Shown here piece by piece: positions 37,947 through 54,458 of a stretch of 64,000 bases of DNA. Positions within the stretch are counted from its first letter, which is position 1. Every line of letters begins with the position of its first letter. Below the pieces are notes generated by a model. The model ran no database searches and was not told the origin of the DNA. It saw only the letters and a program-made list of their open reading frames with translations. A program made the translations under genes and the position numbers. The stretch comes from Trinickia dinghuensis (lineage in GTDB: Bacteria; Pseudomonadota; Gammaproteobacteria; Burkholderiales; Burkholderiaceae): the NCBI RefSeq assembly GCF_003367175.1, contig NZ_QRGA01000007.1:31042-95041 (forward strand), given 5' to 3'.

Positions 37947-37962
37947 AGCAAAGGCTATGCCG
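37947..37962 (-). promoter_or_regulatory. Sigma54 (-24/-12) promoter of the pqqA operon
   Basis: CGGCATA-GCCT-TTGCT read on the minus strand fits the consensus TGGCAYR-N4-TTGCW except for the first base. The GG and GC invariant pairs are 10 bp apart. It lies about 75 nt before pqqA. Confidence 0.65.
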
Positions 37963-38157
37963 GTGGCGATGCGCGCTTCGGTTCAATGCAGGGAGGTGCG
38001 ACGGACGGAGACGACGCGGCCGGTTTCGAAGGGCTGCATCATCGAAAAGATGAGCGAGTGACGTCGCGGGCGTCGCGAGTGCGGGTTGACATGGGCCGCC
38101 GGTGGGGGCAAAGCGGCCCGGCGCGACTCGTTGCGGTCGCAATCATGTCACAGTGGG

Positions 38158-38174
38158 TGTTTCAATCGGCGACA
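38158..38174. promoter_or_regulatory. UAS element A upstream of pqqA (predicted EBP site)
   Basis: TGTTTC-AATCG-GCGACA. Its start is 20 bp (two helical turns) from element B. It lies about 205 bp upstream of the pqqA -24 element and just beyond the EBP gene stop. Confidence 0.6.
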
Positions 38175-38177
38175 CCC

Positions 38178-38194
38178 TGTCTCAACTTGCGACA
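38178..38194. promoter_or_regulatory. UAS element B upstream of pqqA (predicted EBP site)
   Basis: TGTCTC-AACTT-GCGACA, an imperfect inverted repeat (TGTC.C / G.GACA), same orientation as element A. Confidence 0.6.
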
Positions 38195-38258
38195 CTAGCG
38201 AGTGAGACACGAACACGTTTGGGGTGGGCGCAAAATATCGTAGAGGTCTGCGGGAAGC

Positions 38259-40310
38259 TCAGTCCTGCTCGTCGCGCTTCGCGGGCGCGAGATGAGGCAT
38301 CTTGCGATAAAGCGTAGCCCGCGAAACGCCGAGCGCCCGCGCTGCGGCGGAGACGTTGCCGCCGTACTGCGCGAGCGTTGCCGCGATCGCTTGCGCGGCG
38401 ACGTCCTGCAGCCGCGTGCCTTGTTGCGAAGATGATGACGAAGGCGGAGGCAAAGTCGAAGAAGAGGGCGGTTCAGCGCCTGCGCCGTTGGCGGTAGCCG
38501 TGGCCGCAGCGCCCCCCGATTGCGCTTGCAATTCGCCTTTCCGCAGATCGTCGAAGAAGTCGTCGGGCAGGTGGTCGCAGCGAATCTCGCCGTCTTCGTC
38601 GACCATGGCGGCCGCGGTGCGCAGCAAGTTACCGAGTTGCCGGAAGTTGCCGGGCCACATGCAATGCTCGAACAGCGCCATGACTTCGGGTGCGACGGTC
38701 AGACATTGGCCGTCGCCACCCGTCAGTGCTTCGCGTTCGAGCATCTTGCCGATGACCACCGCGAGATCCTTGCGTTCGCGCAGCGGCGGCAGCTTCACGA
38801 TGAGCCCGTTGAGGCGGTAATACAGATCCTCGCGGAAGCGGTTCTGCGCGATCATCTCGCGCAGATCGCGGTGTGTCGCGCAGACGATGGCGATGTCGAC
38901 GGGAATCGTCTTCGTCGATCCGAGCGGGTTGACGACACGCTCTTGCAGCACGCGCAGCAGCCGCACCTGCAGAGGGTAGGGCATATCGCCGATTTCATCG
39001 AGAAAGAGCGTGCCGCCGTGGGCCTGCACGATCTTGCCGACGGCCCCCTTGCGCCGGGCGCCGGTGAAGGCGCCTTCTTCGTAGCCGAACAGCTCCGATT
39101 CGATCAGCGTCTCGGGAATCGAGGCGCAGTTGACGGCGACGAACGGCCCCGAGCGCCGCGGCGATTCGTTGTGGATGGCCTGCGCGAGCAGCTCTTTGCC
39201 CGTGCCCGTTTCGCCGGTGATCAAGAGCGGGATGTCCTTGCCAATCACCTTGCGCACCTTCGCAATCACGGCCGTGACCTGCGGGTCGCCCGTATCGAGC
39301 TGCTCGAGGCGCAGCATGCGCAAGCTGTTGCGCGCCGCCTGTCCCGGGCACGGCTGACCTTGCGTGCTCGTTTCGCGGCGCGCTTCGGTCTGCCAGCCGC
39401 CGGACCCGAGCAGGGCGCGCCGGAACGTGATGCTCGCGCAGACGACGGCGCCGTTGTGCAGGTTCAGCGAGAGAATCGAGTCGCGGCTCGCGCGCAGGCG
39501 GTCGACAAGTTCGGCGCTCGTCATCCCGAACAGCGAAGAGAGCGTATGTGCGCGCAGCGCGGCGAGCGGCATGCCGAGCTGGAACTGGGCGCTGCGGTTC
39601 GCCGATAGAAAGCGTCCGTCGCCGGTGAAGGCGGCGATGCCTTCCATCAGCGTGCCGAGAAACTCGGGGCGGCTGTGAAAGGCGATCTGCAGCGTGTCGC
39701 GGAACGTCGAGGCGAACAGGTGATTCTCGATCATCTGCACGGACATCTTCGCGAGCGCCATCGTGTGCTGATGGTAGCTGCGGTAGTCGCCCGTCACGTC
39801 GAGCACCCCGATCAGGTCGCCGTACGGGTCGAGGATCGGCACGCTCGAGCAAGTGAGGAAGTGATTCGCCGCCAGAAAATGCTGGTCGCCATGGACGACG
39901 GTGGGGCTGCGCTCGGCCAGCGCCGTGCCGATCGCGTTCGTGCCTTGCCGGTCCTCGGACCATTGCGCGCCGGGGCGCAGCGCGACCTTCTCGGCTCGGG
40001 CCAGGAAATCGTCGTCGCCGATCGAATGCAGGATGAGCCCTTGCGAGTCCGTCAGCACGACCATGCTTTCGGTGTTGACGATCTGCTCGCGCAGCGTCTC
40101 CATCACCGGCATGGCGTGCGCGCAGAGGATGCGGTTCTGCTCGACTTTCAGTGCGAGTTCGGAGGCGGGCAGGACGTCGTAATCGGGGCGCACGCTCGTG
40201 ACGAGGCCGAAGCCCTCCGAACGCTCGTGTGCCTTTTGAATGCACGGCGTGGGCCAGCCCGATTCGCCTCCGGCCACGGGTTGCGCGGGGCGATGAACGA
40301 CGTTGCGCAT
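38259..40310 (-). CDS. Sigma54-dependent activator (AcoR-like EBP: GAF-AAA+-Fis)
   Basis: A 683-residue bacterial enhancer-binding protein. ATG 40310 is chosen for GGAGGAG just upstream; the frame opens at 40415. An N-terminal GAF-type sensor (about 65-220) is followed by the AAA+ domain with Walker A GETGTGKE, the sigma54-contact loop GAFTGA and Walker B GTLFLDEIGDM. The C-terminal Fis helix-turn-helix is GGNVSAAARALGVSRATLYR. A low-complexity Ser/Pro linker lies between the last two. AcoR-type EBPs control alcohol/acetoin catabolism. It lies between pqqA and the receptor gene, and I infer it binds the 17-bp elements found before pqqA, the dehydrogenase/receptor pair, the aldehyde dehydrogenase and acs. 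Confidence 0.92.
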   Translation of the reverse strand: MRNVVHRPAQPVAGGESGWPTPCIQKAHERSEGFGLVTSVRPDYDVLPASELALKVEQNRILCAHAMPVMETLREQIVNTESMVVLTDSQGLILHSIGDDDFLARAEKVALRPGAQWSEDRQGTNAIGTALAERSPTVVHGDQHFLAANHFLTCSSVPILDPYGDLIGVLDVTGDYRSYHQHTMALAKMSVQMIENHLFASTFRDTLQIAFHSRPEFLGTLMEGIAAFTGDGRFLSANRSAQFQLGMPLAALRAHTLSSLFGMTSAELVDRLRASRDSILSLNLHNGAVVCASITFRRALLGSGGWQTEARRETSTQGQPCPGQAARNSLRMLRLEQLDTGDPQVTAVIAKVRKVIGKDIPLLITGETGTGKELLAQAIHNESPRRSGPFVAVNCASIPETLIESELFGYEEGAFTGARRKGAVGKIVQAHGGTLFLDEIGDMPYPLQVRLLRVLQERVVNPLGSTKTIPVDIAIVCATHRDLREMIAQNRFREDLYYRLNGLIVKLPPLRERKDLAVVIGKMLEREALTGGDGQCLTVAPEVMALFEHCMWPGNFRQLGNLLRTAAAMVDEDGEIRCDHLPDDFFDDLRKGELQAQSGGAAATATANGAGAEPPSSSTLPPPSSSSSQQGTRLQDVAAQAIAATLAQYGGNVSAAARALGVSRATLYRKMPHLAPAKRDEQD

Positions 40311-40366
40311 TGTCTCCTCCTGATCGTGCGTCGGCACGCAGCCCACACGCTTTTGACTCCGACAAG

Positions 40367-40382
40367 AGCAAAAATTGCGCCA
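40367..40382 (-). promoter_or_regulatory. Possible sigma54 promoter of the EBP gene
   Basis: TGGCGCA-ATTT-TTGCT on the minus strand, one substitution in the -24 element. It lies 57 nt before the EBP start. No convincing 17-bp element was found above it, so this is weaker than the other five. Confidence 0.4.
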
Positions 40383-40523
40383 GCTAGCAACCGCAGTGCG
40401 ATACCCTCCGGTCAAATTCCATGTGTGGTCTCGAAGGCATCGATCTAATACGATGACGCCCGAGCGCGCGAGCGAGTATCAGGGGATACCCCCGATATTC
40501 GTCCGCAGACCCGATTCGGCAGA

Positions 40524-42923
40524 CTAATTCCACGCATATCGAACGCCTACCCATGCGCCTCTCGGCGCGCCCGGTCCCACGAATTGTTCGCTGACGGGGG
40601 CGGAACCGTCGAACGTATGGCCTGGACCGTTGAAGAAGTTCTGGCCGAGCACGCCGAAGCTCGCGTAGCGCTTGTCGAACACGTTCGTCACGGTGGCGAA
40701 CACCCGCAAGCGCTTGGTCACCTGATAGGCGGTATCGAAGTCCACCAGGACGTAGCCTGCGATCTTGCCGTTCACGTCCTGATTGTTTTCGTCGCCCTGC
40801 GCATAGATGTCGCCGCGGTAGGTCACGTTCGTGCCGATCGTCCACTTCGGCGTGGCCGCGTAGTCGAGCCGCAGCTTGACGGTGTTCGCCGGAATCCCCG
40901 GGAGGTGATTGCCGGGCTGAACGGTGATGTTGCCGTTGGCATCGGCGCTCGAGTTGCTCGGGCTGCTTTCGGTCCAGCTCGACCGGTAGGTCGCGTCGAT
41001 GTAGCTGTAGTTCGCCGTCACGCCGAGTTTGCCGAGTTGCGTATGGCCCGAGAGTTCGAAGCCTTGGCGGCGCGTGTTGCCGACGTTTTGGAAGAACCCT
41101 TGCGTCGCCGTGGGCGAGCTGATGAACTCGATGTCGTTATCGAGCGTCGTGCGGTAGACGGCGGCGCTCCACGTGGTTGCGCTCCCGATCCGGCCGCGCG
41201 CGCCGGCTTCGATCGTCTTGGAGATGACTGGGGACAGCGCTGGGTCGGCTACGAAGTCGTTCGGCAGCGAACACGGCGCGGTAGGGTCGGCGCACTCCAG
41301 TTCGATGGCCGTCGGGGTGCGCATGCCTTCGTTGTAGGTCGCGTAAGCCGTGAAGCCAGGCGTCGGGTTCCAGTTCAAGCCGATCGCCGGATTCAAGCGC
41401 GAGAACACGTGGCTGCCGTCGAGTTGCGGCTGCGTGCCGCTTTCGTCTCCAATCTGAGACTTCGCCCAGTTGTAGCGGCCCGAAAGCGTCAACGTCCATT
41501 GCTTGGTGAGCGAGAGCGTGTCTTGCAGATAGGCTGCGAGGTTGGCATCGCGCGTTTTGGCGTTCACCTGCTGGGTGTAGCCGCCGATGCCCACGGTCGC
41601 GCGCGAGGGCAGGAAATAGGCGTCCTGCTCCGATTCGGTGTAGTGCGAGTTCGCGAAATCGACCGCCACGCCCGCCACGAATTGGTTTTTCATGCCGCCG
41701 AGCTGGCCGAGCAAGGTCAATTGAAGGCTGGCGCCGTAGCTATCGGTGCCGACCATCGATTCCACATTGCTGCCTTGGAGTGTATCGATCGAGCCGTCGG
41801 ACTGCACGGAACCGTAGTCGTTGTTGTTGTTGCTGCTGATGTTTTTGCTGACGAGGCGGCGGAAGTAGACGTTGCCGCTCAACTCCGTGCGGTCGTTGAA
41901 GAAGTGCTCGCCGGAGAGCGTCGTGTAGCCGACGCTGTTCAAGTTCTGATCCGGGAACGTGTACGCCTGCCGGAAATCGTCGAGGAACGAGCGCGGGATC
42001 GTCTGCGTGCCTTGCAGGTCGTTATCGGCGCCGCCCGCGGACAACGCGATCGTCGTATCGGCGTCGCTATAACGCAGCTTGCCGAAGCCTTGGCGCACGC
42101 GGCTGGAATTGCTCTCGCCCCAGCCGTTGTCGTTCGCCACGTTGCCGGTCACGTAGTAGTCGAGGTTGTGCCCGATGGTCCCGCCTTGCTCGACTTCGAC
42201 GGTCTTGCGGCCCCACGAGCCGCCGGTCACTTCGACGTCTCCGCCCGGATCGTCCTTGCCGTTCTTCGTCGAAATCGCAATCGCGCCGCCGAGCGTGTTC
42301 AAGCCGAAGGTCGGGCTGGAGCCGGGGACGAGTTCGATCGTGTCGATGGCCTGTTGCGGGATCAAGTCCCAGTTCACGGCGTCGCCGAACGGCTCGTTGA
42401 TCCGCACACCATCCATGAACACCGACAGCCCTTCGGGCGTACCGAGCAACGGCGAGGCCGAGAAGCCTCGATAGTTGATGTTCATTTGGTACGGGTTGCC
42501 TTGCGCGTCGTTGACGTCGACACTCGGCAGGTTCTTCTCGAAGTAGTCGGTCAGCGTCTCGCGATGCTGCTCGCTGAGTTCGTGCCCATGGACGACCTGC
42601 ACGTTGGCCGCCACCTGTGAGAGCGGCAAGCCGATGCCGACGAGCGGCGTCGTGCCGACTACGACGACCGGCTGCAGCGTCGCGCTATAGGTTGCGCCAT
42701 CCGACGCCGCGGGGCTCGGGGCTGCAGCAACAGGCAGCGCTCGCGCGGGACCGGTCTGCGCGGATGCGAAGGGCGCGAGCCCCGCAAGCGCGCTCGCGGC
42801 GAAGCAACCCGCAAGGCGCGTACGCCGGCTCGGCGGGCGTGGGTTATGTCGTTGCCCCGGATGAACATGATCGGTACTCCTAATCATCGGATTGCGGTGA
42901 AGCTGATCGATCGGCCTCATCAT
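40524..42923 (-). CDS. TonB-dependent outer-membrane receptor (candidate lanthanide-chelate or PQQ receptor)
   Basis: A 799-residue receptor. A long N-terminus contains a signal peptide (ending about residue 55, ASAQ; the true start may be the later MIRST). It is followed by a plug domain (about 85-210; NINYRGFSASPLLGTPEGLSVF, VDVNDAQGN) and a 22-strand barrel ending in an aromatic-Asn (VRYAWN). The C-terminal part reminds me of E. coli YncD/PqqU, a PQQ receptor. Its ATG overlaps the stop of a small ORF. Placement beside a WDYD-type dehydrogenase and exbBD/tonB suggests uptake of a lanthanide chelate or PQQ; the substrate is unproven. Confidence 0.88.
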   Translation of the reverse strand: MMRPIDQLHRNPMIRSTDHVHPGQRHNPRPPSRRTRLAGCFAASALAGLAPFASAQTGPARALPVAAAPSPAASDGATYSATLQPVVVVGTTPLVGIGLPLSQVAANVQVVHGHELSEQHRETLTDYFEKNLPSVDVNDAQGNPYQMNINYRGFSASPLLGTPEGLSVFMDGVRINEPFGDAVNWDLIPQQAIDTIELVPGSSPTFGLNTLGGAIAISTKNGKDDPGGDVEVTGGSWGRKTVEVEQGGTIGHNLDYYVTGNVANDNGWGESNSSRVRQGFGKLRYSDADTTIALSAGGADNDLQGTQTIPRSFLDDFRQAYTFPDQNLNSVGYTTLSGEHFFNDRTELSGNVYFRRLVSKNISSNNNNDYGSVQSDGSIDTLQGSNVESMVGTDSYGASLQLTLLGQLGGMKNQFVAGVAVDFANSHYTESEQDAYFLPSRATVGIGGYTQQVNAKTRDANLAAYLQDTLSLTKQWTLTLSGRYNWAKSQIGDESGTQPQLDGSHVFSRLNPAIGLNWNPTPGFTAYATYNEGMRTPTAIELECADPTAPCSLPNDFVADPALSPVISKTIEAGARGRIGSATTWSAAVYRTTLDNDIEFISSPTATQGFFQNVGNTRRQGFELSGHTQLGKLGVTANYSYIDATYRSSWTESSPSNSSADANGNITVQPGNHLPGIPANTVKLRLDYAATPKWTIGTNVTYRGDIYAQGDENNQDVNGKIAGYVLVDFDTAYQVTKRLRVFATVTNVFDKRYASFGVLGQNFFNGPGHTFDGSAPVSEQFVGPGAPRGAWVGVRYAWN

Positions 42924-43156
42924 CGGATGACCGCCGTATGAGCGCCCATCGTCAAGCCGACGTGCTCCGGGGGGAACACCTGCCAGGCACCGTCGCTATG
43001 GCGGAAGAAGTGCAGTGAAATCGGGCCTCGGGGGCCATCGACCTCCACACGTACGCCTTGTCGGCTGTCGTCCCTGCTTGTGATCCGGGTGACGCGCACC
43101 GGTGTGGCGGGCGTGGGTGCCAGCCATTTCTCAACCATCATCCTGAGCCGCCTCAT
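42920..43156 (-). CDS. Small protein translationally coupled to the TonB-dependent receptor
   Basis: A 78-residue protein starting at ATG 43156 behind a strong GGAGGAGG. It is basic at the N-terminus (MRRLRMMVEKWLAP), then has a beta-rich part (VRVEVDGPRGPISLHFFR) and the end EHVGLTMGAHTAVIR. I recognise no family, and there is no signal peptide. Its stop overlaps the receptor ATG (ATGA), and it is the first gene after the predicted sigma54 promoter at 43205-43220. It may be a translational leader or an accessory/regulatory protein for the receptor. Confidence 0.6.
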   Translation of the reverse strand: MRRLRMMVEKWLAPTPATPVRVTRITSRDDSRQGVRVEVDGPRGPISLHFFRHSDGAWQVFPPEHVGLTMGAHTAVIR

Positions 43157-43204
43157 AGCCTCCTCCGTTCCTTGATCTCGTCGTTTTGGCTTTGCGCTCC
43201 TTAG

Positions 43205-43220
43205 TGCGAGATCCATGCCA
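43205..43220 (-). promoter_or_regulatory. Sigma54 promoter of the small ORF-receptor operon
   Basis: TGGCATG-GATC-TCGCA on the minus strand (one T to C change in -12). It lies 49 nt before the small ORF and about 107 bp from the UAS element at 43318. Confidence 0.55.
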
Positions 43221-43317
43221 ATGCTTGTCCTTCAAGGCGCTCGCATTTCCGGTTACCCATAGGAATACGGCTTGATGCGGGATTGGGCTCGATGCGGAGG
43301 TCTCTCGGCGAACACAG

Positions 43318-43334
43318 TGTTTCGTTTCGCGACA
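43318..43334. promoter_or_regulatory. UAS element shared by divergent receptor and dehydrogenase promoters
   Basis: TGTTTC-GTTTC-GCGACA, full match to the consensus. Further TGTYTC half-matches lie at 43351 and 43371. It sits between two divergent sigma54 promoters (43205-43220 and 43467-43482), so one cluster could serve both. Confidence 0.6.
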
Positions 43335-43466
43335 TCTGCACTGTCGAACGTGTTTCAGTTTTGGACGACCTGTCTCGAAGGGCAAATCGAGACCGATTGT
43401 CGCGGGGCATCGGCGGAAATCATCGGAAGACGGCCATGCGCGCTTCGCGCCGTATCGCGCTTGCGA

Positions 43467-43482
43467 TGGCACACCCTTTGCA
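43467..43482 (+). promoter_or_regulatory. Sigma54 promoter of the PQQ alcohol dehydrogenase
   Basis: TGGCACA-CCCT-TTGCA is a full match to the -24/-12 consensus. The leader to the ATG at 43724 is about 230 nt long and shows no gene. Confidence 0.75.
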
Positions 43483-43723
43483 TTCAGCGTCGACCGCGGC
43501 CATGGCTCGATCGTCGAGTCCTCACACTCGACCGAGCCGCGCCGCGATAAATCGACGAACCAAGCTTTGCATCGGACCGTAGCGGGTTCCGACGCGCCCA
43601 CCTTGATCGAGTGTTTTGCACGAGAGCGGAGTGGACGCCAAGGCACCCGCTCCTTTGGATCACTTGGCAGGGGACCGGCGTCAGGCGCGAAGGCACCAGA
43701 GCCGGTCGATATAGGAGACACAC

Positions 43724-45451
43724 ATGAATAGCAGTTCCGCTTCGGCCAATTGGCAGAAGGCGCTCGCAGCATGCGCGCTCGCAGCCATCGGCTTCGCCCC
43801 GCAATTCTCGAACGCCGCCGGCGACTACCCCGCGGTCACCTTCGACCGGCTCGCGAACGCGAAGAGCGATCCGGGCTGGCTCACCTACTACCGCACCTAC
43901 GACGGGCAGTCGCATTCCCCGGCGAAGCAGATCGATACGTCGAACGTGAAGGACCTCTCGCTCGCCTGGAGCTACAAGTTCCCGGCCGATCTGCAGCAGG
44001 GCTTCGAAGCAACGCCGATCGTCAACGGCAACTATCTGTTCGTCAGCACGCCGAAGGACAACGTCTACGCATTCGATGCGACCACGGGCAAGTCGCTCTG
44101 GAAGTACGAGCCGAACCTCGGCCCGGAGGCGTTCAAGACCGCATGCTGCGACGTCGTGAATCGCGGCGTGGCGCTTTACGGCAAGAACGCCTATATCGCG
44201 ATGCTCGACGGTGAGATCGTCGCGCTCGATGCGCAATCGGGGAACGTCGCGTGGAAGAAGCGGATGTTCGATCCGGGCTTGGGCTATGCGTTCTCGCTCG
44301 CCCCGCTCGCGATCGACGGCGCGATCGTCGTCGGCAACTCGGGCGGCGAGTACGGTGCACGCGGCTTCATCGCGGCACTCGATCCCGACAACGGCAATGT
44401 GCTGTGGAAGCGCACGACGATTCCGGGCCCCAAGGAGAAGGGCGGCGACACCTGGCCCGATGGGATGCAGGAACATGGCGGCGGCGCATCGTGGCTGACG
44501 GGCACGTTCGATCCGGCCACGAAGACGCTCTTCTGGGGTGTCGGCAACCCGGGGCCGTGGCTCGCGAAGCTGCGTCCGGGCAGCAACCTCTATTCGGATT
44601 CGCTGCTCGCGCTCGACCCGAAGACGGGCGACATCAAGTGGCACTACCAGTACACGCGTAACGACACGTGGGACTACGACGGCGTGAATACGCCGATCCT
44701 CGCGAACGTCAAATACGACGGCAAGGACTACGACGCGATCATCCACGCCGACCGCAATGGCTTCTTCCACGCGATCGACCGCACGACGGGCAAGCTCATC
44801 TACGCGCATCCGTTCGTGAAGGCGATGTCCGTCACCGGTTATACGGCCGAAGGCGATCCGATCGAGGATCAATCGAAGTATCCCAACGCGGGCACGACGA
44901 TCAACACGTGCCCGAGCTTCCTCGGCGGCAAGAACTGGTGGTCCATCTCGTACGACGCGGCCAAGCATCTGGCATTCGTGCCGACGCTGCATGCGTGCAT
45001 GAGCCTCTCGGGCAAGTCGGTGAGCTACATGGAAGGTCTGCCGTACCTCGGCGAAGGCTTCGAGATCCAGCCCGAACCCGGCAGCAAGGGCTATGGCGAG
45101 TTGCAGGCGATCGACGTGAACACGGGCAAGAAGGTCTGGAGCCACTGGACCAAGATGCCGTGGAACGGCGGCGTCGCGAGCACGGCCGGCGGCCTGGCGT
45201 TCAGCGGCTCGCTCGACGGTCACCTCTACGCGTTCGACGAAGAGACGGGCAAGGTGCTCTGGCAGAGCCCGAAGCTGGCGAGCGGCATCGTCGCGCAGCC
45301 TTCCGTGTTCGAAGCGAACGGGCAAGAGTACGTCGCGGTGCTGGCCGGCTACGGCGGCGCGAACCCGATCTGGGGCGGCCCGATGGCGAAGATCGCCGAC
45401 AAGGTACCGCGCGGCGGCACGCTCTATGTGTTCGCGCTGCATCACGGCTGA
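43724..45451 (+). CDS. PQQ-dependent alcohol dehydrogenase with lanthanide-type active site
   Basis: A 575-residue periplasmic quinoprotein of the methanol/ethanol dehydrogenase family (type I, no haem). The signal peptide ends about residue 31 (SNAAG). The eight-bladed propeller carries the vicinal disulfide C141-C142 and metal ligands E209 (GGEYG) and N275 (GVGNPGPW). The catalytic base is D317 in WDYDG. D319, two residues later, is the residue that marks lanthanide-dependent XoxF/PedH enzymes; Ca enzymes have Ala or Ser there. GGAGA precedes the ATG. The product aldehyde would feed the aldehyde dehydrogenase at 49.4 kb. The substrate is probably a short alcohol; whether methanol or ethanol cannot be told. 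Confidence 0.95.
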   Translation: MNSSSASANWQKALAACALAAIGFAPQFSNAAGDYPAVTFDRLANAKSDPGWLTYYRTYDGQSHSPAKQIDTSNVKDLSLAWSYKFPADLQQGFEATPIVNGNYLFVSTPKDNVYAFDATTGKSLWKYEPNLGPEAFKTACCDVVNRGVALYGKNAYIAMLDGEIVALDAQSGNVAWKKRMFDPGLGYAFSLAPLAIDGAIVVGNSGGEYGARGFIAALDPDNGNVLWKRTTIPGPKEKGGDTWPDGMQEHGGGASWLTGTFDPATKTLFWGVGNPGPWLAKLRPGSNLYSDSLLALDPKTGDIKWHYQYTRNDTWDYDGVNTPILANVKYDGKDYDAIIHADRNGFFHAIDRTTGKLIYAHPFVKAMSVTGYTAEGDPIEDQSKYPNAGTTINTCPSFLGGKNWWSISYDAAKHLAFVPTLHACMSLSGKSVSYMEGLPYLGEGFEIQPEPGSKGYGELQAIDVNTGKKVWSHWTKMPWNGGVASTAGGLAFSGSLDGHLYAFDEETGKVLWQSPKLASGIVAQPSVFEANGQEYVAVLAGYGGANPIWGGPMAKIADKVPRGGTLYVFALHHG

Positions 45452-45580: not shown

Positions 45581-46852
45581 ATGAAAACGCACCTTCATCA
45601 GTTTGCGGCGGTCGCGGCGACCGTCGCCGGTCTGGCCACTGCGTCGTCGGCCTTGGCCGCCGAGCCGATCCACATCTGCACGTTTCCCGGCAGCCCCTCG
45701 GCCGCGCTCGACAAGGTCGTCGCCCAGGAAGCGTTCAAGACGGCCGGTATCGCCGCGACGTTCGTCGCGGATGGCATCCCCGGCGGCGACGATGACGACG
45801 GCGTCTCGTTGAAGGCGTTGCGCCGGACGCTCGGCCACGGCTGCGACGTCCTCGCAGGCTTTCCGCGTTCGTCCGTTGCCGATGCCGCGAGCGGCGCGAT
45901 GCGGTTTTCCCGCGGCTATCTGCGCACGGACTATGTCAGCGTCGAGGCAAGCACGAAAACGCACGAGGGTGCCGGGCCGGACGTCGTCGCCGCGACTTAC
46001 GGCAGCCCTTCGCAATTGATCGCAGTGCAAGAACAGCATGTGCGCTTCGATCTCGAGAATACGCCCGATCTCACCATCCAGGCCGTCGCAAGCGGCCGTG
46101 CGACACGCGCGATCGTCTGGTATCCGGCCGTGGTCGCCTACCAGCAAGCGCATGAGGGACAGCAGTTCGATGTCCGCAAGACGCGCTCGCCTTATTCCAA
46201 CTGGCAGCTCTCCTTTGCTTTCAGCCAGGATGCAAAGGCGTTGCAGAAAAAGGTCGACCGGGCACTGGGCGCCATGGTGGCCGATGGACGACTCGACACG
46301 CTCACGCACGCGTGGGCATTGCCGGCGTCAATCCAAGCCGCGCAGGCCGCGCAGGCCGCGCCAGCTCGATTCGCCTATATGGACGGCCCCGTCGCCGCGG
46401 CGAGCCGCGGCATGTTGCGCGATGCAGCGTACTCGGCGCGAAACGCAGGGCACATCGTCAAGATCTCGGACGCCGCGGCGCCCGCTGCGGGCGCTCCGTC
46501 GTTCGACAACGCGCAAATCGCGCACGGCAAGAGCCTGTACGGCAGCAACTGCGCGAAGTGTCATGGCGCGAACATGCAGGGCATCACGGCCCCCGCGCTG
46601 AGCGGACCGGCGTTCGCGCCCGCAAGCGGCTCGCACCTGACGATCGGCGGCATCTACACCTACATGTCGACCAACATGCCGGCCGATCGCCCCGGCAAGC
46701 TCAAGGACGACGAGTACGCCGACATCATGGCGTATCTGCTGAGCGCGAACGGCTACGGCCCCGGCAAAGCCAAAATGACGGCCGACAGCGCGCGCGGCTC
46801 GACGACGTTGCTCAACGCCGGCCCGCTCGGCGTGGCCCACGCGGCGAAGTGA
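45581..46852 (+). CDS. XoxJ/MxaJ-like periplasmic binding domain fused to cytochrome c
   Basis: A 423-residue exported protein (signal to about residue 26, ALAAE). Residues about 28-255 form a periplasmic-binding (SBP_bac_3-like) domain of the kind called XoxJ/MxaJ in methanol dehydrogenase clusters. After a linker, a class I cytochrome c domain (about 305-400) has the haem site C324-A-K-C327-H328 and axial Met candidates M362 or M366. In known clusters the binding protein (activation) and the cytochrome (electron acceptor) are separate genes, so this fusion is unusual. It follows the dehydrogenase and probably activates it and accepts its electrons (inference). Confidence 0.85.
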   Translation: MKTHLHQFAAVAATVAGLATASSALAAEPIHICTFPGSPSAALDKVVAQEAFKTAGIAATFVADGIPGGDDDDGVSLKALRRTLGHGCDVLAGFPRSSVADAASGAMRFSRGYLRTDYVSVEASTKTHEGAGPDVVAATYGSPSQLIAVQEQHVRFDLENTPDLTIQAVASGRATRAIVWYPAVVAYQQAHEGQQFDVRKTRSPYSNWQLSFAFSQDAKALQKKVDRALGAMVADGRLDTLTHAWALPASIQAAQAAQAAPARFAYMDGPVAAASRGMLRDAAYSARNAGHIVKISDAAAPAAGAPSFDNAQIAHGKSLYGSNCAKCHGANMQGITAPALSGPAFAPASGSHLTIGGIYTYMSTNMPADRPGKLKDDEYADIMAYLLSANGYGPGKAKMTADSARGSTTLLNAGPLGVAHAAK

Positions 46853-46863: not shown

Positions 46864-48249
46864 ATGAGCATCTTGGCAAACGAGCCGCGAACCCGTCGCT
46901 CGGCGCCGAACGATTCGGTCTCGCTCTATCTGCGGGACATGGCCGCGACGCCGCTTCTCACGCGCGAGGAGGAGCTCGACTTCGCGCGACGGATCGACGC
47001 GGCGCGCGTCGCGAGCATGATGCAGTTCGCGGCATATCCGGCGGCGCTGGATGAGCTCGCGTCGATCAAGCAGGAGATCGTCGAGGGCAAGGCGGCGATA
47101 GGCAGCTATGTCGTCGGCCTCAGTCAAGAGGAAGGCGACGCGGGGCTGCGTGACGGGATGGCATCGGGCAGCGTCATCGAGCAGGAGGACTCGCCCGAGC
47201 GGCAGGCGGCAATCGTCGCGCAACTGACTCGCATCGACGAAGCCGCTTCGGCGCTACGCGAAGCGATGCGGCACGAGGGCTACGGCTGCGCGTCGTATCG
47301 CCGGGCGCGTCGCAAACTGCGCGCGAGACTGGCGACGCTCCGTTTCACCGCGCGCACGATCGAGCGCTTGACGCAGTCGCTCGCTTTGCGGCGAGGCGGC
47401 ACGCACGCGCAGGACGCCGAGCGGCCGCACGATGGCGGCGGCTATGCGTTCGCGCTGCCGCCGGCGCTCGCCCGTCGTCTCCTTGTCCGCCTTCAAGTCA
47501 TCGATCGCGGCGCGGCGGGTGCGCGGGTGCGTTTGCTCAAGGGCAACCTGCGCCTCGTCGTTTCGATCGCCAGGCGCTATACCGAGCGCGGGCTGCCGCT
47601 TGCCGATCTCGTGCAGGAAGGCAACATCGGCCTGGTAAAGGCCATCGAGCGATACGATCACCGGCGCGGCTTCAAGTTCGCCACCTATGCGACCTGGTGG
47701 ATACGCCAGGCGGTGCTGCATGCGCTCGGCGATCAAGGACGGATGATACGGGTGCCCGTGCATACGGCCGATTCTCTGAGCAAGCTCAGCCGCATCACGC
47801 TCGATCATGTGCATCGCTCGGGCGGCCGGCCCACGCATGCGATGCTCGCGAAAAAGATGGGCATGCCGCTCGATAAGCTTCGCGACTTGACGAACATCGT
47901 CCGCGATCCCGTTTCCATGGAAACGCTCGCGGCGCCGGGAAGCGACGTGACGGTTGGCGAGTTCGTCGCCGACGACGACATGCCGACGCCCGAGGAAGTC
48001 ACGATGGCGCGGCATATGCGGCGCGCGGTGCTGGCCGCCATCGACCAATTGCCGACGCGCGAAGCGAACGTGCTGCGGCTGCGCTTCGGGATCGGCGTCG
48101 CGGACGAATATTCGCTGCGCGAAGTCGGCAAGCAACTGAATCTATCGGCCGAGCGCGTGCGCCAGATCGAAGTGATGGCGATCGAGCGGCTTCGCGGTGC
48201 GCCCGGCTTCGCGGGCCTGAAGGATTACGTCAGTGTGAACGGGCATTGA
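46864..48249 (+). CDS. Sigma70-family RNA polymerase sigma factor (RpoD/RpoH/RpoS-like)
   Basis: A 461-residue sigma factor. It has region 1.2 (DSVSLYLRDMAATPLLTREEE), an Arg-rich non-conserved insert (about 60-200), region 2 (LRLVVSIARRYTERGLPLADLVQEGNIGLVKAIERYD then KFATYATWWIRQAV), region 3 (PTHAMLAKKMG) and region 4 (VLRLRFGI, SLREVGKQLNLSAERVRQIE). It is too complete for an ECF factor and looks like a group 2 paralogue. It lies 11 nt after the XoxJ-cytochrome gene in the same direction, an odd place for a sigma factor; its target promoters are unknown. Confidence 0.9.
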   Translation: MSILANEPRTRRSAPNDSVSLYLRDMAATPLLTREEELDFARRIDAARVASMMQFAAYPAALDELASIKQEIVEGKAAIGSYVVGLSQEEGDAGLRDGMASGSVIEQEDSPERQAAIVAQLTRIDEAASALREAMRHEGYGCASYRRARRKLRARLATLRFTARTIERLTQSLALRRGGTHAQDAERPHDGGGYAFALPPALARRLLVRLQVIDRGAAGARVRLLKGNLRLVVSIARRYTERGLPLADLVQEGNIGLVKAIERYDHRRGFKFATYATWWIRQAVLHALGDQGRMIRVPVHTADSLSKLSRITLDHVHRSGGRPTHAMLAKKMGMPLDKLRDLTNIVRDPVSMETLAAPGSDVTVGEFVADDDMPTPEEVTMARHMRRAVLAAIDQLPTREANVLRLRFGIGVADEYSLREVGKQLNLSAERVRQIEVMAIERLRGAPGFAGLKDYVSVNGH

Positions 48250-48310
48250 CGCGGGAAGGGCGGGTTGAGGCGGGGACCGATGGGCGTTGGCGGTGAATGG
48301 GATTCGCGCA

Positions 48311-49156
48311 ATGATGACGCAAACGCATCGTGCATTCGATCGAGGTGAGCGCCGACGGCTCGGCGCGATCGCCGCGGTCGTGCTCGCCCTCCACGGCTTC
48401 GCGGCTTTGCATCTCTATCGGCAAGGTGTCGAATCGCATGCGGTTGCCGTGTCATCGGCCGCGCCCGTGTCGATCCGCTTCGTGGCCGCGATTCGAGCCG
48501 CGCCTTCCGCGGCGGCAACGGTTCGCCCCGCAGCGGCTGCAACCCCAGCGCCGAAGACGCCGCCAAGCAAAAGCAATGAGCGACCGGCTCATCGTCGAGA
48601 AGGCGCGGCGCACGAGGTTAGCCGCTCCGATGCCGACGTTGCGCGCACATCGAGGCCAAGGCCGAGGCAACCCGAATCGGTCCACAAGGAGTCGTTGCCG
48701 CGTGTAAGCAATGCGCTTTCGCCGGCTTCATCCGCTTCGCTCGCGGAGCCCCCATCGCAAAGCGCGGCGTCCTCGCACTCGAGTTCGTCCGTGGCGAAAC
48801 AGCCGCCGAGCGCATCGGCGTCGTCATCGGCTATCCCGGAGCATCAAGCATCGGCGGTTGTAGCCTCCGAAGCGCAGACCGAACCCATCTTCAACGCCGC
48901 CTATCTGCATAACCCCGCACCGGACTATCCGCCGATGGCGCTTCAACGAAGGTGGGAGGGAACGGTGCTGCTGAAAGTGCGTGTCCTTGCCGACGGCCGC
49001 GCGGAGCAAGTCACTGTGATCACATCGAGCGGACACGCATCGCTCGACGATGCGGCCGTGCAAGCGGTGACGGCATGGCGCTTCATTCCGGCACGGCGCG
49101 CGGGGGAGGCGATTGACGGCTGGGTACATGTGCCGCTCGTCTTCAAAGCGGAGTGA
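48311..49156 (+). CDS. tonB: TonB energy transducer
   Basis: A 281-residue TonB starting at ATG 48311 (the frame opens at 48287). It has one N-terminal membrane helix (about 14-32), a long Ala/Pro/Ser-rich periplasm-spanning region (about 50-195) and a C-terminal TonB domain (about 200-281; APDYPPMALQRRWEGTVLLK, then AVTAWRFIPAR). It would couple the ExbB/ExbD motor encoded at the end of the pqq operon to the receptor at 40.5-42.9 kb. It lies 61 nt after the sigma factor gene. All parts of one TonB system are therefore inside this cluster. Confidence 0.9.
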   Translation: MMTQTHRAFDRGERRRLGAIAAVVLALHGFAALHLYRQGVESHAVAVSSAAPVSIRFVAAIRAAPSAAATVRPAAAATPAPKTPPSKSNERPAHRREGAAHEVSRSDADVARTSRPRPRQPESVHKESLPRVSNALSPASSASLAEPPSQSAASSHSSSSVAKQPPSASASSSAIPEHQASAVVASEAQTEPIFNAAYLHNPAPDYPPMALQRRWEGTVLLKVRVLADGRAEQVTVITSSGHASLDDAAVQAVTAWRFIPARRAGEAIDGWVHVPLVFKAE

Positions 49157-49193
49157 GTACACGCTGCGTTAAAGCTAATGTGAATAAGCGGGG

Positions 49194-49210
49194 TGTTTTA
49201 AATTGAAACA
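49194..49210. promoter_or_regulatory. UAS variant 1 upstream of the aldehyde dehydrogenase
   Basis: TGTTTT-AAATT-GAAACA, a palindromic variant of the 17-bp element, about 102 bp before the -24 box. Confidence 0.45.
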
Positions 49211-49233
49211 CCGGACGCACTGCATATCATAGT

Positions 49234-49250
49234 TGTACCGGAATGAAACA
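49234..49250. promoter_or_regulatory. UAS variant 2 upstream of the aldehyde dehydrogenase
   Basis: TGTACC-GGAAT-GAAACA. It matches better when read on the minus strand (TGTTTC-N5-GGTACA). It starts exactly 40 bp after variant 1, an integral number of helical turns. Confidence 0.45.
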
Positions 49251-49302
49251 CTTAAAATTCCGCGGAAATATCGCTGTTCACCGGATTTCAACGATTTCAA
49301 TT

Positions 49303-49318
49303 TGGCATGCTTGTTGCC
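49303..49318 (+). promoter_or_regulatory. Sigma54 promoter of the aldehyde dehydrogenase
   Basis: TGGCATG-CTTG-TTGCC fits the -24/-12 consensus. It lies 75 nt before the ATG at 49394. Confidence 0.75.
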
Positions 49319-49393
49319 TAATGCAGCCGACAGCCGTTTGGCGCTGTGATGTGTTTTTCAGAAAACGCGATCGAAATCTAAAGGAGACGTGCG

Positions 49394-50920
49394 ATGGACC
49401 TGTTTGACCTGAAACAACTCGGCCTGGACATTGAATTCCCGTACCGCAAGCAGTACGACAACTATATCGGCGGCAAATGGGTGCCGCCGGTCAGCGGGAA
49501 TTATTTCGAGAACGTCTCGCCGATCAACGGCAAGCCGTTCTGCCGCGTTCCGCGCTCGAGTTCGGAAGACATCGAACTGGCGATCGATGCCGCGCATGCG
49601 GCGCGCCGCAAGTGGGGCAAGACCTCGACCACCGAGCGCGGCAATCTGCTCCTGGCCGTGGCTGACCGCATGGAGAAGAACCTGAAGCTGCTCGCCGTCG
49701 CCGAGACGATCGACAACGGCAAGCCGCTGCGCGAGACGATGGCCGCCGACCTGCCGCTCGCCATCGATCACTTCCGTTATTTCGCCGGCTGCATCCGCGC
49801 GCAGGAAGGCGCGATTTCGGAGATCGACGACAACACGGTGGCTTACCATTTCCACGAGCCGATGGGTGTCGTCGGCCAGATCATCCCGTGGAATTTCCCC
49901 CTCCTGATGGCCGCCTGGAAGCTTGCCCCCGCGCTCGCGGCCGGCTGCTGCGTCGTCATGAAGCCGGCCGAGCAGACGCCTGCTTCCGTGATGGTCCTCA
50001 TGGAAATCATCGGCGATCTGTTCCCCGCCGGCGTCATCAACATCGTCAGCGGTTTCGGCAAGGAAGCCGGCGAGGCCCTTGCCACGAGCAAGCGGATCGC
50101 GAAGATCGCCTTCACGGGGTCGACGCCGATCGGCAAGCGCATTCTGCACGCGGCGGCCGACAACCTGATTCCGAGCACGGTCGAGCTGGGCGGCAAGAGC
50201 CCGAACATCTTCTTCGCCGATGTGATGGACCACGACGATGCCTACTTCGACAAGGCGCTCGAAGGCTTGGCGATGTTTGCGCTGAATCAGGGCGAAGTGT
50301 GTACGTGTCCGTCGCGCATTCTGATTCAGGAATCGATCTATGGGCGCTTCATCGAGAAGGCGATCGAACGCGTCGGCAAGATCAAGGCCGGCCATCCGCT
50401 CGATCTGCAGACGATGATCGGCGCGCAGGCTTCGCAGCAGCAGCTCGACAAGATCCTCTCGTACATCGATATCGGCCGCGGCGAAGGCGCGCAGTGCCTG
50501 ACCGGCGGTGCGCGCACGGCGCCGCTGTCCGATCTCGGCGACGGCTTCTACGTTCAGCCGACGATGCTGCTCGGCAACAACAAGATGCGCGTGTTCCAAG
50601 AGGAAATCTTCGGGCCCGTGGCGTCGGTGATGACGTTCAAGGACGAAGCGGAAGCGATCGAATTGGCCAACGACACGTTCTATGGCCTCGGCGCCGGCGT
50701 TTGGACGCGCAACGGTACGCGCGCTTATCGCATGGGCCGCGAGATCGAGGCGGGCCGTGTCTGGACGAACTGCTATCACCTGTATCCCGCGCACGCCGCG
50801 TTCGGCGGCTACAAGCAGTCGGGCATCGGCCGGGAAACGCATAAGAAGGCACTCGAGAACTATCAGCAAACGAAGTGTCTGCTCGTCAGCTATCAAGCCG
50901 AGGCGCTTGGGTTCTTCTGA
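49394..50920 (+). CDS. NAD-dependent aldehyde dehydrogenase (ExaC/acetaldehyde dehydrogenase type)
   Basis: A 508-residue class-3-like aldehyde dehydrogenase that oxidises acetaldehyde-like aldehydes to acids. Visible features: the N-terminal [15 protein letters not shown], cofactor loop IIPWNFPLL, nucleotide motif [11 protein letters not shown], catalytic Glu in [12 protein letters not shown] and catalytic Cys in GEVCTCPSR, and the end [18 protein letters not shown]. Close relatives are the ExaC enzymes of PQQ-ethanol oxidation. It has its own sigma54 promoter and UAS variants, and AGGAGA precedes the ATG. A strong terminator follows. Confidence 0.95.
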
Positions 50921-50963
50921 TACCGATTTCGATCGACTCGTTGCCGCCTTATCGGCGGCATTT

Positions 50964-51003
50964 GCTCGAGCACCGCGGAAGCAATCGGTGCTCGAGCTTT
51001 TTT
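50964..51003 (+). terminator. Rho-independent terminator after the aldehyde dehydrogenase
   Basis: A perfect 12-bp stem (GCTCGAGCACCG / CGGTGCTCGAGC), 10-nt loop and a run of six T. A smaller 7-bp hairpin (50942-50960) precedes it. Confidence 0.9.
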
Positions 51004-51044
51004 GCGTCTACTGCATTGACGGAGCTTGGTCCGGTCAGGACGCT

Positions 51045-52118: not shown

Positions 52119-52213
52119 CGTCTACCTCCGTGGGTGTTGATTTGGCTTTAATGAACGACTAATCCTATTGATTGGATAGGAGTGCTAATTAATCGGACGA
52201 ATCCGACCATTTC

Positions 52214-52235
52214 CGGCACGAGGGAGGCCGTGCCG
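52214..52235 (-). terminator. Hairpin after acs
   Basis: CGGCACG / CGTGCCG 7-bp stem with an 8-nt loop, 62 nt beyond the acs stop. It has no T-run, so its role as a terminator is uncertain. Confidence 0.35.
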
Positions 52236-52296
52236 TATGACGGCATGGGGCGCGCACCGACGCGCTAGGCGCGCCGGCAGCGTCGGTGGCGCGGCG

Positions 52297-54279
52297 TTAT
52301 CGCGCTTGACCCAATTGGTTGAGGATGTCGGGGTTTTCGAGCGTGGAGGTGTCCTGCGTGATCGCCTCGCCCTTCGCGAGCGAGCGCAGCAAGCGCCGCA
52401 TGATCTTGCCCGAGCGTGTCTTCGGCAGGTTGTCGCCGAACCGGATTTCCTTCGGCTTCGCGATCGGCCCGATCTCCTTGCCGACCCAGTCTCGCAGCGC
52501 CTTGGCGAGCTGCTCGGCTTCTTCCCCTTGCGGTCGCGCGCGCTTGAGCACGACGAACGCCACGACGGCTTCGCCCGTCGTCTCGTCGGGCCGTCCGACC
52601 ACCGCGGCCTCCGCTACAAGTTCGTGCGCGACGAGGGCCGATTCGATCTCCATCGTCCCGAGCCGGTGGCCCGACACGTTGAGTACGTCGTCGATCCGGC
52701 CTGTGATCGTGAAGTAGGCCGTGTCCTTGTCGCGCACCGCGCCGTCGCCGGCGAGGTACAGCGCACCGCCGAGCTCTTGCGGGTAGTAGCTTTTCACGAA
52801 GCGTTCCGGGTCGCCCCAGACCGTGCGTATCATCGAGGGCCACGGGCGCTTCACGACGAGGATGCCGCCTTGTCCGTCGGGCACGTCCTGTCCCGTTTCG
52901 TCGACGACGGCCGCCATGATGCCGGGCAACGGCAACGTGCACGATCCGGGCACGGTCGGCGTGGCGCCCGGCATCGGTGCGATCATGTGGCCGCCGGTCT
53001 CGGTTTGCCACCAGGTGTCGACGACGGGGCAGCGCTCGCCGCCGACGTGCCGGTGATACCACATCCAAGCTTCGGGATTGATCGGCTCGCCGACGGTGCC
53101 GATGATGCGCAGGCTCGAGAGATCGTGGCGCGCGGGATGCACGTTCGCGTCGGCTTCGGCGGCTTTGATCAGCGACCGGATCGCGGTCGGGGCCGTATAG
53201 AACAACGACACCCGATGATCGCCGATCATCTTCCAGAAGCGTCCGGCGTTCGGATAGGTGGGCACGCCCTCGAACACGACCTGGGTCGCGCCCAATGCGA
53301 GCGGGCCGTAGGCGATATACGTGTGGCCCGTGATCCAGCCGATGTCGGCCGTGCACCAGAAGACGTCCTCGCGCTTCCAGTCGAACGTCCACTTCATCGT
53401 CTGCGCGGCCCAGAGCAGATAGCCGGCGGTGCTGTGCTGAACGCCCTTGGGTTTGCCGGTGGAGCCGGATGTGTAAAGGATGAACAGCGGATGCTCGGCG
53501 CCGACCCATTCGGGCTCGCAAACGTCGGGCTCGTTTTCGACGATTTCGTGCAGCCAGCAATCGCGGCTTTCGCGCCATGCGACGTAGCCGCCCGTGCGGC
53601 GGTAGACGATCGTCGTCTTGACGGCGTCGCAGCCGCCCATGGCGAGGGCGTCATCGGCGATCTGTTTGAGCGGTAGCGTTTTGCCGCCGCGCACTTGTTC
53701 GTCCGCGGTGATGACGGCCACGGCGCCGACGTCGACGATGCGCTCATGAAGCGACTTCGCCGAGAACCCGCCGAAGACGACCGAATGCGTGGCGCCGATG
53801 CGCGCGCAGGCTTGCATGGCTGCGATGCCTTCGATCGACATGGGCATGTAGATGACGACGCGATCGCCGCGCTGGATGCCGCGCCGCTTGAGCGCGTTGG
53901 CCAGGCGCGAAACGCGCGAGAGCATCTGTGCGTAGGTGACGCGTGTGACCGTGCCGTCGTCAGCTTCGAAGACAATGGCTACGCGATCGCCATGGCCGGC
54001 GGCGACATGGCGATCGAGGCAGTTGTACGACGCGTTCAGCTCGCCGTCTTCGAACCACTTATAGAACGGTGCGTTGGACTCGTCGAGCACCTTGCCGAAC
54101 GGCTTGCGCCATTCGAGCGCTTCGCGTGCGAGCCCGGCCCAGAAGCCTTCGTAATCGCGTTCGGCCTGCGAGGCCAACTCACGATAAGCCGCCATGCCGG
54201 AGATGTTCGCGCCGCTTTGTGCTTCGGCCGTCGGTTCGAAGCTTCGCTGCTTCTGAGGGGGCAATTCCATCGAGGTCAC
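52297..54279 (-). CDS. acs: Acetyl-CoA synthetase
   Basis: A 660-residue AMP-forming acetate:CoA ligase. Motifs: P-loop-like [15 protein letters not shown] (about residue 268), [28 protein letters not shown] (about 415), the hinge region [16 protein letters not shown] and the catalytic Lys in TRSGKIMRR. It turns the acetate made by alcohol and aldehyde oxidation into acetyl-CoA, completing the pathway. A sigma54 promoter and a full-consensus UAS element lie upstream, linking it to the EBP. Confidence 0.97.
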
Positions 54280-54326
54280 AGATGTCTCTCCGCTGATATC
54301 GTTCTAAATCAATGCGGCGCGACAAA

Positions 54327-54342
54327 CGCAACTTGTATGCCA
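54327..54342 (-). promoter_or_regulatory. Sigma54 promoter of acs
   Basis: TGGCATA-CAAG-TTGCG on the minus strand fits the -24/-12 consensus. It lies 48 nt before the acs start. Confidence 0.75.
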
Positions 54343-54441
54343 AGCGAGCGGAATCAGGCTGGACGTGCGTGGGCGCTAGGTCTGTGCGGGCGGCGCGCAA
54401 CCGCGACGTCGTTGAGGTTGCTTCAGAATGTGACGATCCAT

Positions 54442-54458
54442 TGTTTCATGGCGCGACA
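54442..54458. promoter_or_regulatory. UAS element upstream of acs
   Basis: TGTTTC-ATGGC-GCGACA, full match to the element seen before pqqA and the dehydrogenase, about 109 bp upstream of the acs -24 box. Beyond it (54460-54850) I see no gene. Confidence 0.65.

Follow-up and report, generated by a model that had tools for sequence, protein, structure and literature searches.

Do the genes that would carry an alcohol through to acetyl-coenzyme A (acetyl-CoA) in Trinickia dinghuensis, spread over several transcription units, answer to one activator? We analyzed a stretch of 64,000 nucleotides from contig NZ_QRGA01000007.1 (hereafter, the window), which belongs to a 7.37-Mb genome. One block of the window carries genes for synthesis of pyrroloquinoline quinone (PQQ) with exbBD, a TonB-dependent receptor preceded by a small open reading frame (ORF), a PQQ alcohol dehydrogenase, an ExaC-type acetaldehyde dehydrogenase (ALDH), acetate-CoA ligase (acs), and a gene for an enhancer-binding protein (EBP). 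A first-pass annotation, made from the letters of the DNA, had proposed that this EBP switches on cofactor synthesis, uptake, oxidation and acetate activation together, by way of sigma54 (-24/-12) promoters and a 17-bp element, TGTYTC-N5-GCGACA. From comparisons with related genomes we consider it very probable that a single EBP drives a joint sigma54 regulon for lanthanide-type alcohol oxidation.

In the proposed mechanism, the GAF-domain EBP (38259-40310) would bind the inverted repeat TGT-N11-ACA, which here mostly reads TGTYTC-N5-GCGACA, at sites made of one or two helically phased copies. The bound protein would activate RNA polymerase with sigma54 at five -24/-12 promoters close by. PQQ synthesis with exbBD, the receptor, the dehydrogenase operon, ExaC and acetyl-CoA synthetase would then be switched on together; the dehydrogenase operon would add a MoxJ-like/cytochrome c fusion, a sigma-70 factor and tonB. 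The EBP gene would stand under a -24/-12 promoter of its own, further from the consensus. We infer the binding and activation by the EBP and the extents of the operons, as well as the inducer (an alcohol or aldehyde), the metal, the substrate and the ligand of the receptor. The sites, their spacing and conservation, the gene families and the aspartate (Asp) discussed below are read directly from sequence.

Promoters and elements in the window

The -24/-12 sites claimed before the five units all exist where they had been placed, and the full element matches at 38158, 38178, 43318 and 54442 are exact. The variants at 49194 and 49234 are present and keep TGT-N11-ACA, and the spacings of 20 and 40 bp within the element pairs are correct (Table 1). 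The -24/-12 promoter of the EBP gene, the lanthanide-type Asp of the dehydrogenase and the additional operon genes (fusion, sigma-70 factor, TonB) had been overlooked.

When an element was required 60-360 bp upstream of a -24/-12 site, five pairs were found, all in the block and belonging to pqq, the receptor, the dehydrogenase, ALDH and acs; the combination does not occur in the remainder of the 64-kb window. Block shuffles gave a mean of 0.05 pairs and a maximum of 2 (60 shuffles). The exact 17-mer has six copies in the genome, four of which lie in the block between genes, and the reversed control has one. Both copies outside the block sit inside long open frames (L001, and an 871-codon frame in L002); the frame in L001 has what we take to be an hmgA-like start. 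The probability of four of six exact matches falling within 16.5 kb is 3.8e-10, a post hoc figure, since these are the sites from which the motif was taken.

The genome holds 41 exact TGGCAY-N5-TTGC sites. The element lies upstream of all three that fall in the block, and any TGT-N11-ACA occurs within 350 bp of only two of the 38 outside it. The discriminating signal is the element and the -24/-12 site together.

Neither of the two outside sites was accepted as a member of the regulon. One (L131) scores 15.4, the lowest training site scoring 15.5, and its palindrome is a different one, GTCGTGA-A-TCACGAC; the other scores -3.5, a poor match. At L131 (~1400-1510, in the same genome) a sigma54-like site precedes an operon that by eye is of the efflux type, and the palindrome is repeated; it is perhaps the site of another EBP.

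Conservation among relatives

A scan of named genomes returned 354 relatives of the dehydrogenase; the comparisons use the best 80 of these loci together with flanks of up to 10 kb. By title they come from 78 genomes, Paraburkholderia tagetis accounting for three loci. The relatives by identity include Trinickia diaoshuihuensis (90%), a metagenome-assembled genome labelled Paraburkholderia (87%) and T. soli (85%). Locus L055, from the soil strain Paraburkholderia xenovorans LB400, carries the EBP, dehydrogenase and fusion genes along with pqqD and an ALDH gene. A -24/-12 site was scored when at least 9 of 10 positions matched within 450 bp upstream; we dropped tblastn matches covering less than 50% of the query, and upstream regions that fell short of 250-300 bp. 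Of the sequences available, alignments A2-A4 take in 26 of 33, 32 of 77 and 22 of 72, counting those of the window.

By this measure a -24/-12 site precedes the dehydrogenase in 80/80 named loci, the EBP gene in 68/72, pqqB in 36/37 and ALDH in 18/18; for the receptor the count is 24/33, for acs 7/9 and for tonB, which is internal to the operon in the window and heads its own unit in many relatives, 10/12. No such site was found upstream of the within-operon genes (fusion gene 0/78, exbB 0/15, sigma-70 factor 0/13), and the porin gene has one in 1/12. The distribution of TGT-N11-ACA is similar: it lies upstream of the dehydrogenase in 77/80 loci (5.8 expected), the receptor in 26/33 (1.1), ALDH in 16/18 (2.0), acs in 6/9 (0.2), tonB in 7/12 (0.8), and, within 700 bp, pqqB in 35/37 (2.9). 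It is absent upstream of the fusion gene (0/78), the sigma-70 factor gene (0/13), exbB (0/15) and the porin gene.

The element also emerged from a de novo dyad scan, from which overlapping regions similar in k-mers had been removed (80 to 65, 72 to 61, 37 to 22, 33 to 20 and 18 to 15). Before the dehydrogenase, TGT-N11-ACA is the top dyad other than the ribosome-binding site, present in 62 of the 65 regions left after this filter, where 5.2 would be expected; it is the strongest dyad before the receptor (16/20) and ALDH (13/15). The scan did not bring it up for the EBP gene or in the 450 bp before pqqB; the latter stretch is filled by the pqqA gene.

Element-promoter pairs in the named loci number 227 and occur in 79 of the 80, the expectation from four shuffles being 5.25. 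Among distinct close pairs of elements (regions common to divergent genes counted once), 64 of 65 are spaced 20-22, 30-32 or 41 bp; this spacing is helical phasing. The promoters also deviate from the consensus in a manner specific to their class. All 36 pqq promoters passing the score read CGGCAY, only 1 of 68 EBP promoters has A at the fifth position, and TCGC occurs in 13 of 18 ALDH and 11 of 24 receptor promoters scored. Such deviations may set graded promoter strengths.

The activator

The EBP was said to combine a GAF sensor, GAFTGA and a Fis helix-turn-helix (HTH), and Pfam bears this out (PF00158, Sigma54_activat, 232 bits; GAF, 57.5; HTH_8, 42.6), with GAFTGA present in the translation. 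It is predicted to activate transcription with RpoN. Orthologues were mapped in 72 of the 80 named loci, and several of the other eight are short contigs. We also surveyed 150 genomes of the family, 39 of which have the dehydrogenase, entering EBP matches of at least 62% identity. An EBP orthologue of at least 70% is present in 37 of the 39 (Fisher 3.7e-29), and in 37 of the 39 an EBP of at least 65% lies within 20 kb of the dehydrogenase on the same contig.

Genome G044 has its cluster divided between two replicons, with part of it present twice. One locus (L223) carries the EBP, dehydrogenase, acs, sigma-70 factor and pqqCDE-exbBD; the other (L228) carries pqqB, pqqD, the receptor, the small ORF, dehydrogenase, fusion gene, tonB and ALDH, with an element and a promoter before pqq, the receptor, the dehydrogenase and ALDH. 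No EBP was found in the 20 kb read at L228, and G044 shows a single EBP match. Sites without a local EBP are as expected if that one protein acts in trans.

In 68 of 72 named loci the recognition helix of the EBP reads SRN-; the window and seven loci of the same genus have SRAT. All seven of these loci favour C at position 4 of the upstream activating sequence (UAS), as does 1 of 76 other named loci, and two same-genus SRTT loci favour T (9 T and 4 C among 16 half-sites). The covariation of helix and site fits direct recognition.

A de novo scan of positions -300 to -95 upstream of the EBP gene brought up no element shared by the loci. The dyads TTG-N8-CAA and TGA-N6-TCA are each present in 16 of 63 EBP upstream regions; we take both to fit an FNR-like box, which suggests oxygen control of the EBP in a subgroup. 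At L223, where the EBP gene neighbours the dehydrogenase, a UAS lies 202 bp upstream of it. Autoregulation would be a guess.

Across the wider order, 18 of 300 genomes have an EBP match at E<=1e-180; four of the 18 belong to the family of the window and include its own genome. Sixteen EBP neighbourhoods (two from the same family) contain an ExaC-like ALDH in nine cases and pqqB to pqqE in three. Four of the 16 have a PQQ dehydrogenase of ~40% identity, with the Asp of WD[YF]DG in 4/4. Element-promoter pairs in the 16 number 11, against 2.1 after shuffling, and fall in eight loci. Of seven further EBP neighbourhoods, one (L219) is a full cluster, two have ALDH and the remaining four have neither of these.

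The enzymes of the pathway

The best-scoring solved structures for the dehydrogenase are PDB chains that we take to be PedH. Its WDYDG aligns with WDFDG of PedH and WDFSG of ExaA, so that an Asp stands two residues past the catalytic Asp where ExaA has Ser; WDYDG is kept in 80/80 named loci. The genome has one PF01011 gene and one TIGR03075 protein above cut-off, both of them this dehydrogenase, and a search with PF01011 and TIGR03075 found no second, Ca-type PQQ alcohol dehydrogenase with which a PedE/PedH-type switch could operate. In Pseudomonas the metal Asp separates PedH (lanthanide) from PedE (Ca), according to the available part of the source (PMC5487730). The dehydrogenase is thus probably a lanthanide-dependent enzyme. 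Given the Asp and the single PF01011 protein, the most likely role of the regulon is to convert ethanol or a similar alcohol to acetyl-CoA by lanthanide-dependent oxidation. ExaC and acs would complete that route; the ALDH scores 898.5 bits with NF050026 over residues 16-508, just under the 900-bit cut-off.

The gene downstream of the dehydrogenase appears to encode a MoxJ/XoxJ-like domain joined to cytochrome c, a reading that rests on weak matches to hidden Markov models (HMMs). In the window protein TIGR03871 (MoxJ) scores 20.8 bits, under its cut-off of 212; across the family it matches 30 of 32 members and MoxG matches 32 of 32, all weakly and below cut-offs. The gene was mapped in 78 of the 80 named loci. 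The sigma-70 factor gene begins 12 bp past the end of the fusion gene, inside a putative sigma54-driven operon, and was mapped in 13 of the 80 (Trinickia L041 at 69%, Burkholderia at ~42%). Its product has 44% identity over the core to its two next best matches in the genome.

A much wider generalization can be framed, namely that EBPs of this family serve as dedicated master activators of lanthanide-dependent alcohol oxidation in the Burkholderiaceae. A sigma54 circuit would then stand in for the two-component lanthanide switch and would also provide for the cofactor, a fused XoxJ-XoxG-like partner and TonB-driven import of the lanthanide chelate; ethanol growth through PQQ would lack a Ca-dependent fallback, and a sigma-70 factor under sigma54 control would form a second tier in some genera. 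We regard it as rather unlikely in that full form.

The ligand of the receptor

The candidate ligands of the receptor would be PQQ or a lanthanide chelate. By profile, the nearest solved structure is PqqU/YncD (8e-34; the next is at 2.7e-17), and a single-sequence search of solved structures gave no match at 1e-10. With synteny of pqqU and pqq reported for four Burkholderiales genomes in the available text of PMC12124388, this makes it possible that the receptor, with TonB-ExbBD, recaptures PQQ as a PqqU-like importer and does not take up a lanthanide chelate. We considered PqqU as its identity and did not accept it: the equivalog model scores 141.7 bits against a cut-off of 1200. None of the five PqqU contact residues in the aligned stretches is kept (Q84, Y99, N477, Y481 and R536 correspond to Y, L, I, C and T in the receptor profile), R304, R365 and K274 fall in a stretch that does not align, and the cell has pqq genes of its own. 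We regard PQQ recapture as a tentative alternative. The uptake that the earlier annotation counted in the regulon is, as to its ligand, putative.

Evidence against a single regulon and alternative activators

A number of observations weigh against one EBP governing the whole block, or against the element as its mark. Relaxed searches carry little signal: with up to two mismatches the window has 17 matches (14.2 expected), with up to one the genome has 49 (control, 35), and a generalised palindrome has 13 genome sites (control, 11). Outside pairs were sought at exact TGGCAY-N5-TTGC sites and not at degenerate promoters such as CGGCAT. A genome-wide enrichment had been put forward as the check on the elements; it was borne out for the exact motif (four of six in the block) and for element plus promoter, and failed for the relaxed motif, which is near control frequency. 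The weaker variants, taken alone, are at or near chance level, and because relaxed elements are uninformative genome-wide, claims of enrichment rest on the exact motif and the combination with a promoter. In the named loci, pqqD regions are mixed (-24/-12 in 30/63; element in 24/63 at 600 bp, 4.0 expected), and at a laxer cut of 8/10 the sigma-70 factor gene scores 6/13, with 2.4 expected. TGT-N13-ACA is also raised, with 87 element-promoter pairs and a presence in 34/80 dehydrogenase regions. A UAS lies upstream of the EBP gene in 4/72 loci within 250 bp (1.8 expected) and 12/72 within 450 bp (3.6 expected). The covariation of helix and site is confined to essentially one clade, and support for acs rests on nine loci.

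The family of the EBP is also broader than the pathway. Of 40 genomes with an orthologue of at least 70%, 3 lack this dehydrogenase. Distant homologues stand beside an ExaC-like ALDH with neither dehydrogenase nor pqq in 7 of the 16 neighbourhoods, and four of the 16 have none of the enzymes of the block (L210 has only a 29% pqqB match). The EBP is thus not specific to lanthanide enzymes; what its family has in common looks like the oxidation of alcohols or aldehydes, in which the lanthanide-type enzyme recurs as a partner. In L216-L218 the EBP orthologue is ~73% identical and there is no such dehydrogenase; a UAS-promoter pair stands before a putative gene in two of them (L216 and L217).

A single sigma54 regulon might also be read by a different EBP, which would bind some or all of the elements and leave only ExaC, or the nearest promoter, to the adjacent one. 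TGT-N10-12-ACA is a generic class of site common to many bacterial EBPs (available text of PMC6615313), so other EBPs could share it; the EBP query drew 43 candidates at a first look at the genome, and three genomes of the family, as noted, have the EBP without this dehydrogenase. The genome nonetheless offers no close second, the next match at E<=1e-60 being 41% over part of the protein. The EBP and the dehydrogenase strongly co-occur and are adjacent, and changes in the recognition helix and the site go together in the same clade. We consider a different EBP improbable.

Equally improbable, in our judgment, is a division in which pqq, the receptor, the dehydrogenase and ALDH form one regulon and acs answers to another activator that shares the general type of site. 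That acs maps near the cluster in only 9 of the 80 named loci (with flanks of up to 10 kb), one of them at 41% identity, would agree with this, as would the activation of acs by CrbS/R in Vibrio and pseudomonads (PMC5715377, in the text available). Against it, the acs site in the window matches the motif exactly and has counterparts in L041 and L223, and most acs regions found have a -24/-12 site, as most have the element. That the elements arose by chance or from the composition of the block, an idea to which only the near-chance level of the weak variants lends anything, is contradicted by conservation, spacing and negative controls and can be given practically no weight.

Control by the one EBP encoded in the block remains the reading we prefer. 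The earlier claim of one activator is supported by phylogenetic footprinting for the set as a whole, with thinner evidence for acs (7/9 for -24/-12, 6/9 for the element).

Gene content and coordinates

The start first assigned to the small ORF, 43216, is ruled out because that position is inside its own promoter, and the ATG at 43156 is likelier. The 78-aa product matched no NCBIfam family; its gene is apparently co-transcribed with that of the receptor and recurs in several relatives. A porin gene and acs, both on the minus strand, come after the ALDH gene in the block.

Table 1. Genes, promoters and upstream elements of the block, in window coordinates
Feature	Position	Strand	Basis or remark
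pqqABCDE-exbBD unit	33386-37871	minus	
exbD	33386-33859	minus	ExbD/TolR model, under equivalog cut-off
exbB	33856-34605	minus	ExbB/TolQ model, under equivalog cut-off
pqqB, pqqC, pqqD, pqqE	34610-37728	minus	NCBIfam equivalogs, scores exceed cut-offs
pqqA, 24 aa	37797-37871	minus	TIGR02107, 47.1 bits (cut-off 20)
-24/-12 promoter of pqqABCDE-exbBD	37948-37962	minus	CGGCATAGCCTTTGC
UAS pair, pqq promoter	38158-38174 and 38178-38194		20 bp apart; both exact motif
EBP gene	38259-40310	minus	Pfam: GAF, AAA+ (GAFTGA), Fis-type HTH
-24/-12 promoter of EBP gene	40368-40382	minus	TGGCGCAATTTTTGC; 68/72 loci match at least 9/10 (1.1 expected)
TonB-dependent receptor	40524-42923	minus	Pfam barrel and plug
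Small ORF, 78 aa	42920-43156	minus	Revised start ATG 43156, preceded by GGAGGAGG
-24/-12 promoter of small ORF-receptor	43206-43220	minus	TGGCATGGATCTCGC
UAS common to divergent receptor and dehydrogenase promoters	43318-43334		Exact motif; counterparts in L040-L042
-24/-12 promoter of dehydrogenase operon	43467-43481	plus	TGGCACACCCTTTGC
PQQ alcohol dehydrogenase with WDYDG	43724-45451	plus	TIGR03075, 567.4 bits (cut-off 480.05)
Putative MoxJ/XoxJ-like periplasmic binding domain and cytochrome c fusion	45581-46852	plus	Weak HMM matches
Sigma-70 family factor	46864-48249	plus	Pfam r1.2, r2, r3, r4
tonB	48287-49156	plus	TonB_C
UAS pair, ALDH	49194-49210 and 49234-49250		40 bp apart; variants keeping TGT-N11-ACA
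-24/-12 promoter of ALDH	49303-49317	plus	TGGCATGCTTGTTGC
ExaC-type acetaldehyde dehydrogenase (ALDH)	49394-50920	plus	NF050026, 898.5 bits (cut-off 900)
acs, acetate-CoA ligase	52297-54270	minus	TIGR02188, 967 bits (cut-off 725)
-24/-12 promoter of acs	54328-54342	minus	TGGCATACAAGTTGC
UAS, acs	54442-54458		Exact motif; counterparts in L041, L223

Significance and comparison with known systems

If the proposed regulon is real, lanthanide metabolism would be a trait of many more soil and plant bacteria (dozens of species of Paraburkholderia, Caballeronia, Burkholderia and Trinickia), and rare-earth-dependent growth on alcohols would be predicted for them. The analysis also supplies, for testing in laboratory strains, a well-defined UAS, candidate genes for uptake and a protein in which a MoxJ-like domain is fused to cytochrome c. 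The circuit is probably of a known kind (sigma54 with a bacterial EBP) with new content, lanthanide-type alcohol oxidation. Among the matches listed by a literature search of openly licensed papers, we found no EBP regulon for a lanthanide-type dehydrogenase in the Burkholderiaceae. Published control of lanthanide-type PQQ alcohol dehydrogenases, as the available texts describe it, is by LuxR-type regulators and histidine kinases.

To judge by the title of a 2017 study by Singh et al., ExaA of Azospirillum brasilense is reportedly under sigma54 and a LuxR-type regulator. That enzyme would likewise be a sigma54-controlled quinoprotein alcohol dehydrogenase, but its regulator would be of the LuxR type, where here a GAF-domain EBP with a conserved UAS would act.

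A parallel in control is found in another betaproteobacterium, Ralstonia solanacearum GMI1000, in which growth on ethanol requires rpoN1, and ExaC (RSc3128) is predicted to be driven by an AcoR-like EBP (RSc3129) (PMC4676750). The two systems would have in common sigma54 and an AcoR-like EBP with an ExaC-type ALDH. In the available text of that paper, however, the target given is ExaC, with no pqq, lanthanide-type dehydrogenase, receptor or acs, and the word PQQ is absent. BmoR of Thauera butanivorans, likened here by description, is also an alcohol-responsive sigma54 EBP, but drives the promoter of an alkane monooxygenase (available text of PMC8899819).

In content, the block resembles the ped cluster of Pseudomonas, which brings together PQQ synthesis and alcohol and aldehyde dehydrogenases, and whose PedH has the same metal Asp. 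There, according to the parts of the sources available, control is by the LuxR-type AgmR and the two-component PedS2/PedR2 Ca/lanthanide switch (PMC12997753, PMC5487730), whereas here an EBP would be in control and no second PQQ alcohol dehydrogenase was found. The xox1 and lut genes of Methylorubrum extorquens likewise comprise a lanthanide enzyme, the XoxG cytochrome, XoxJ, PQQ genes and a TonB-dependent receptor, LutH, and XoxG and XoxJ are needed for XoxF in that organism (PMC7391723). XoxG and XoxJ are separate proteins there, and the available text describes no sigma54 regulon (PMC7391723); in the window their putative counterparts are fused into one protein, encoded in an operon that an EBP would activate.

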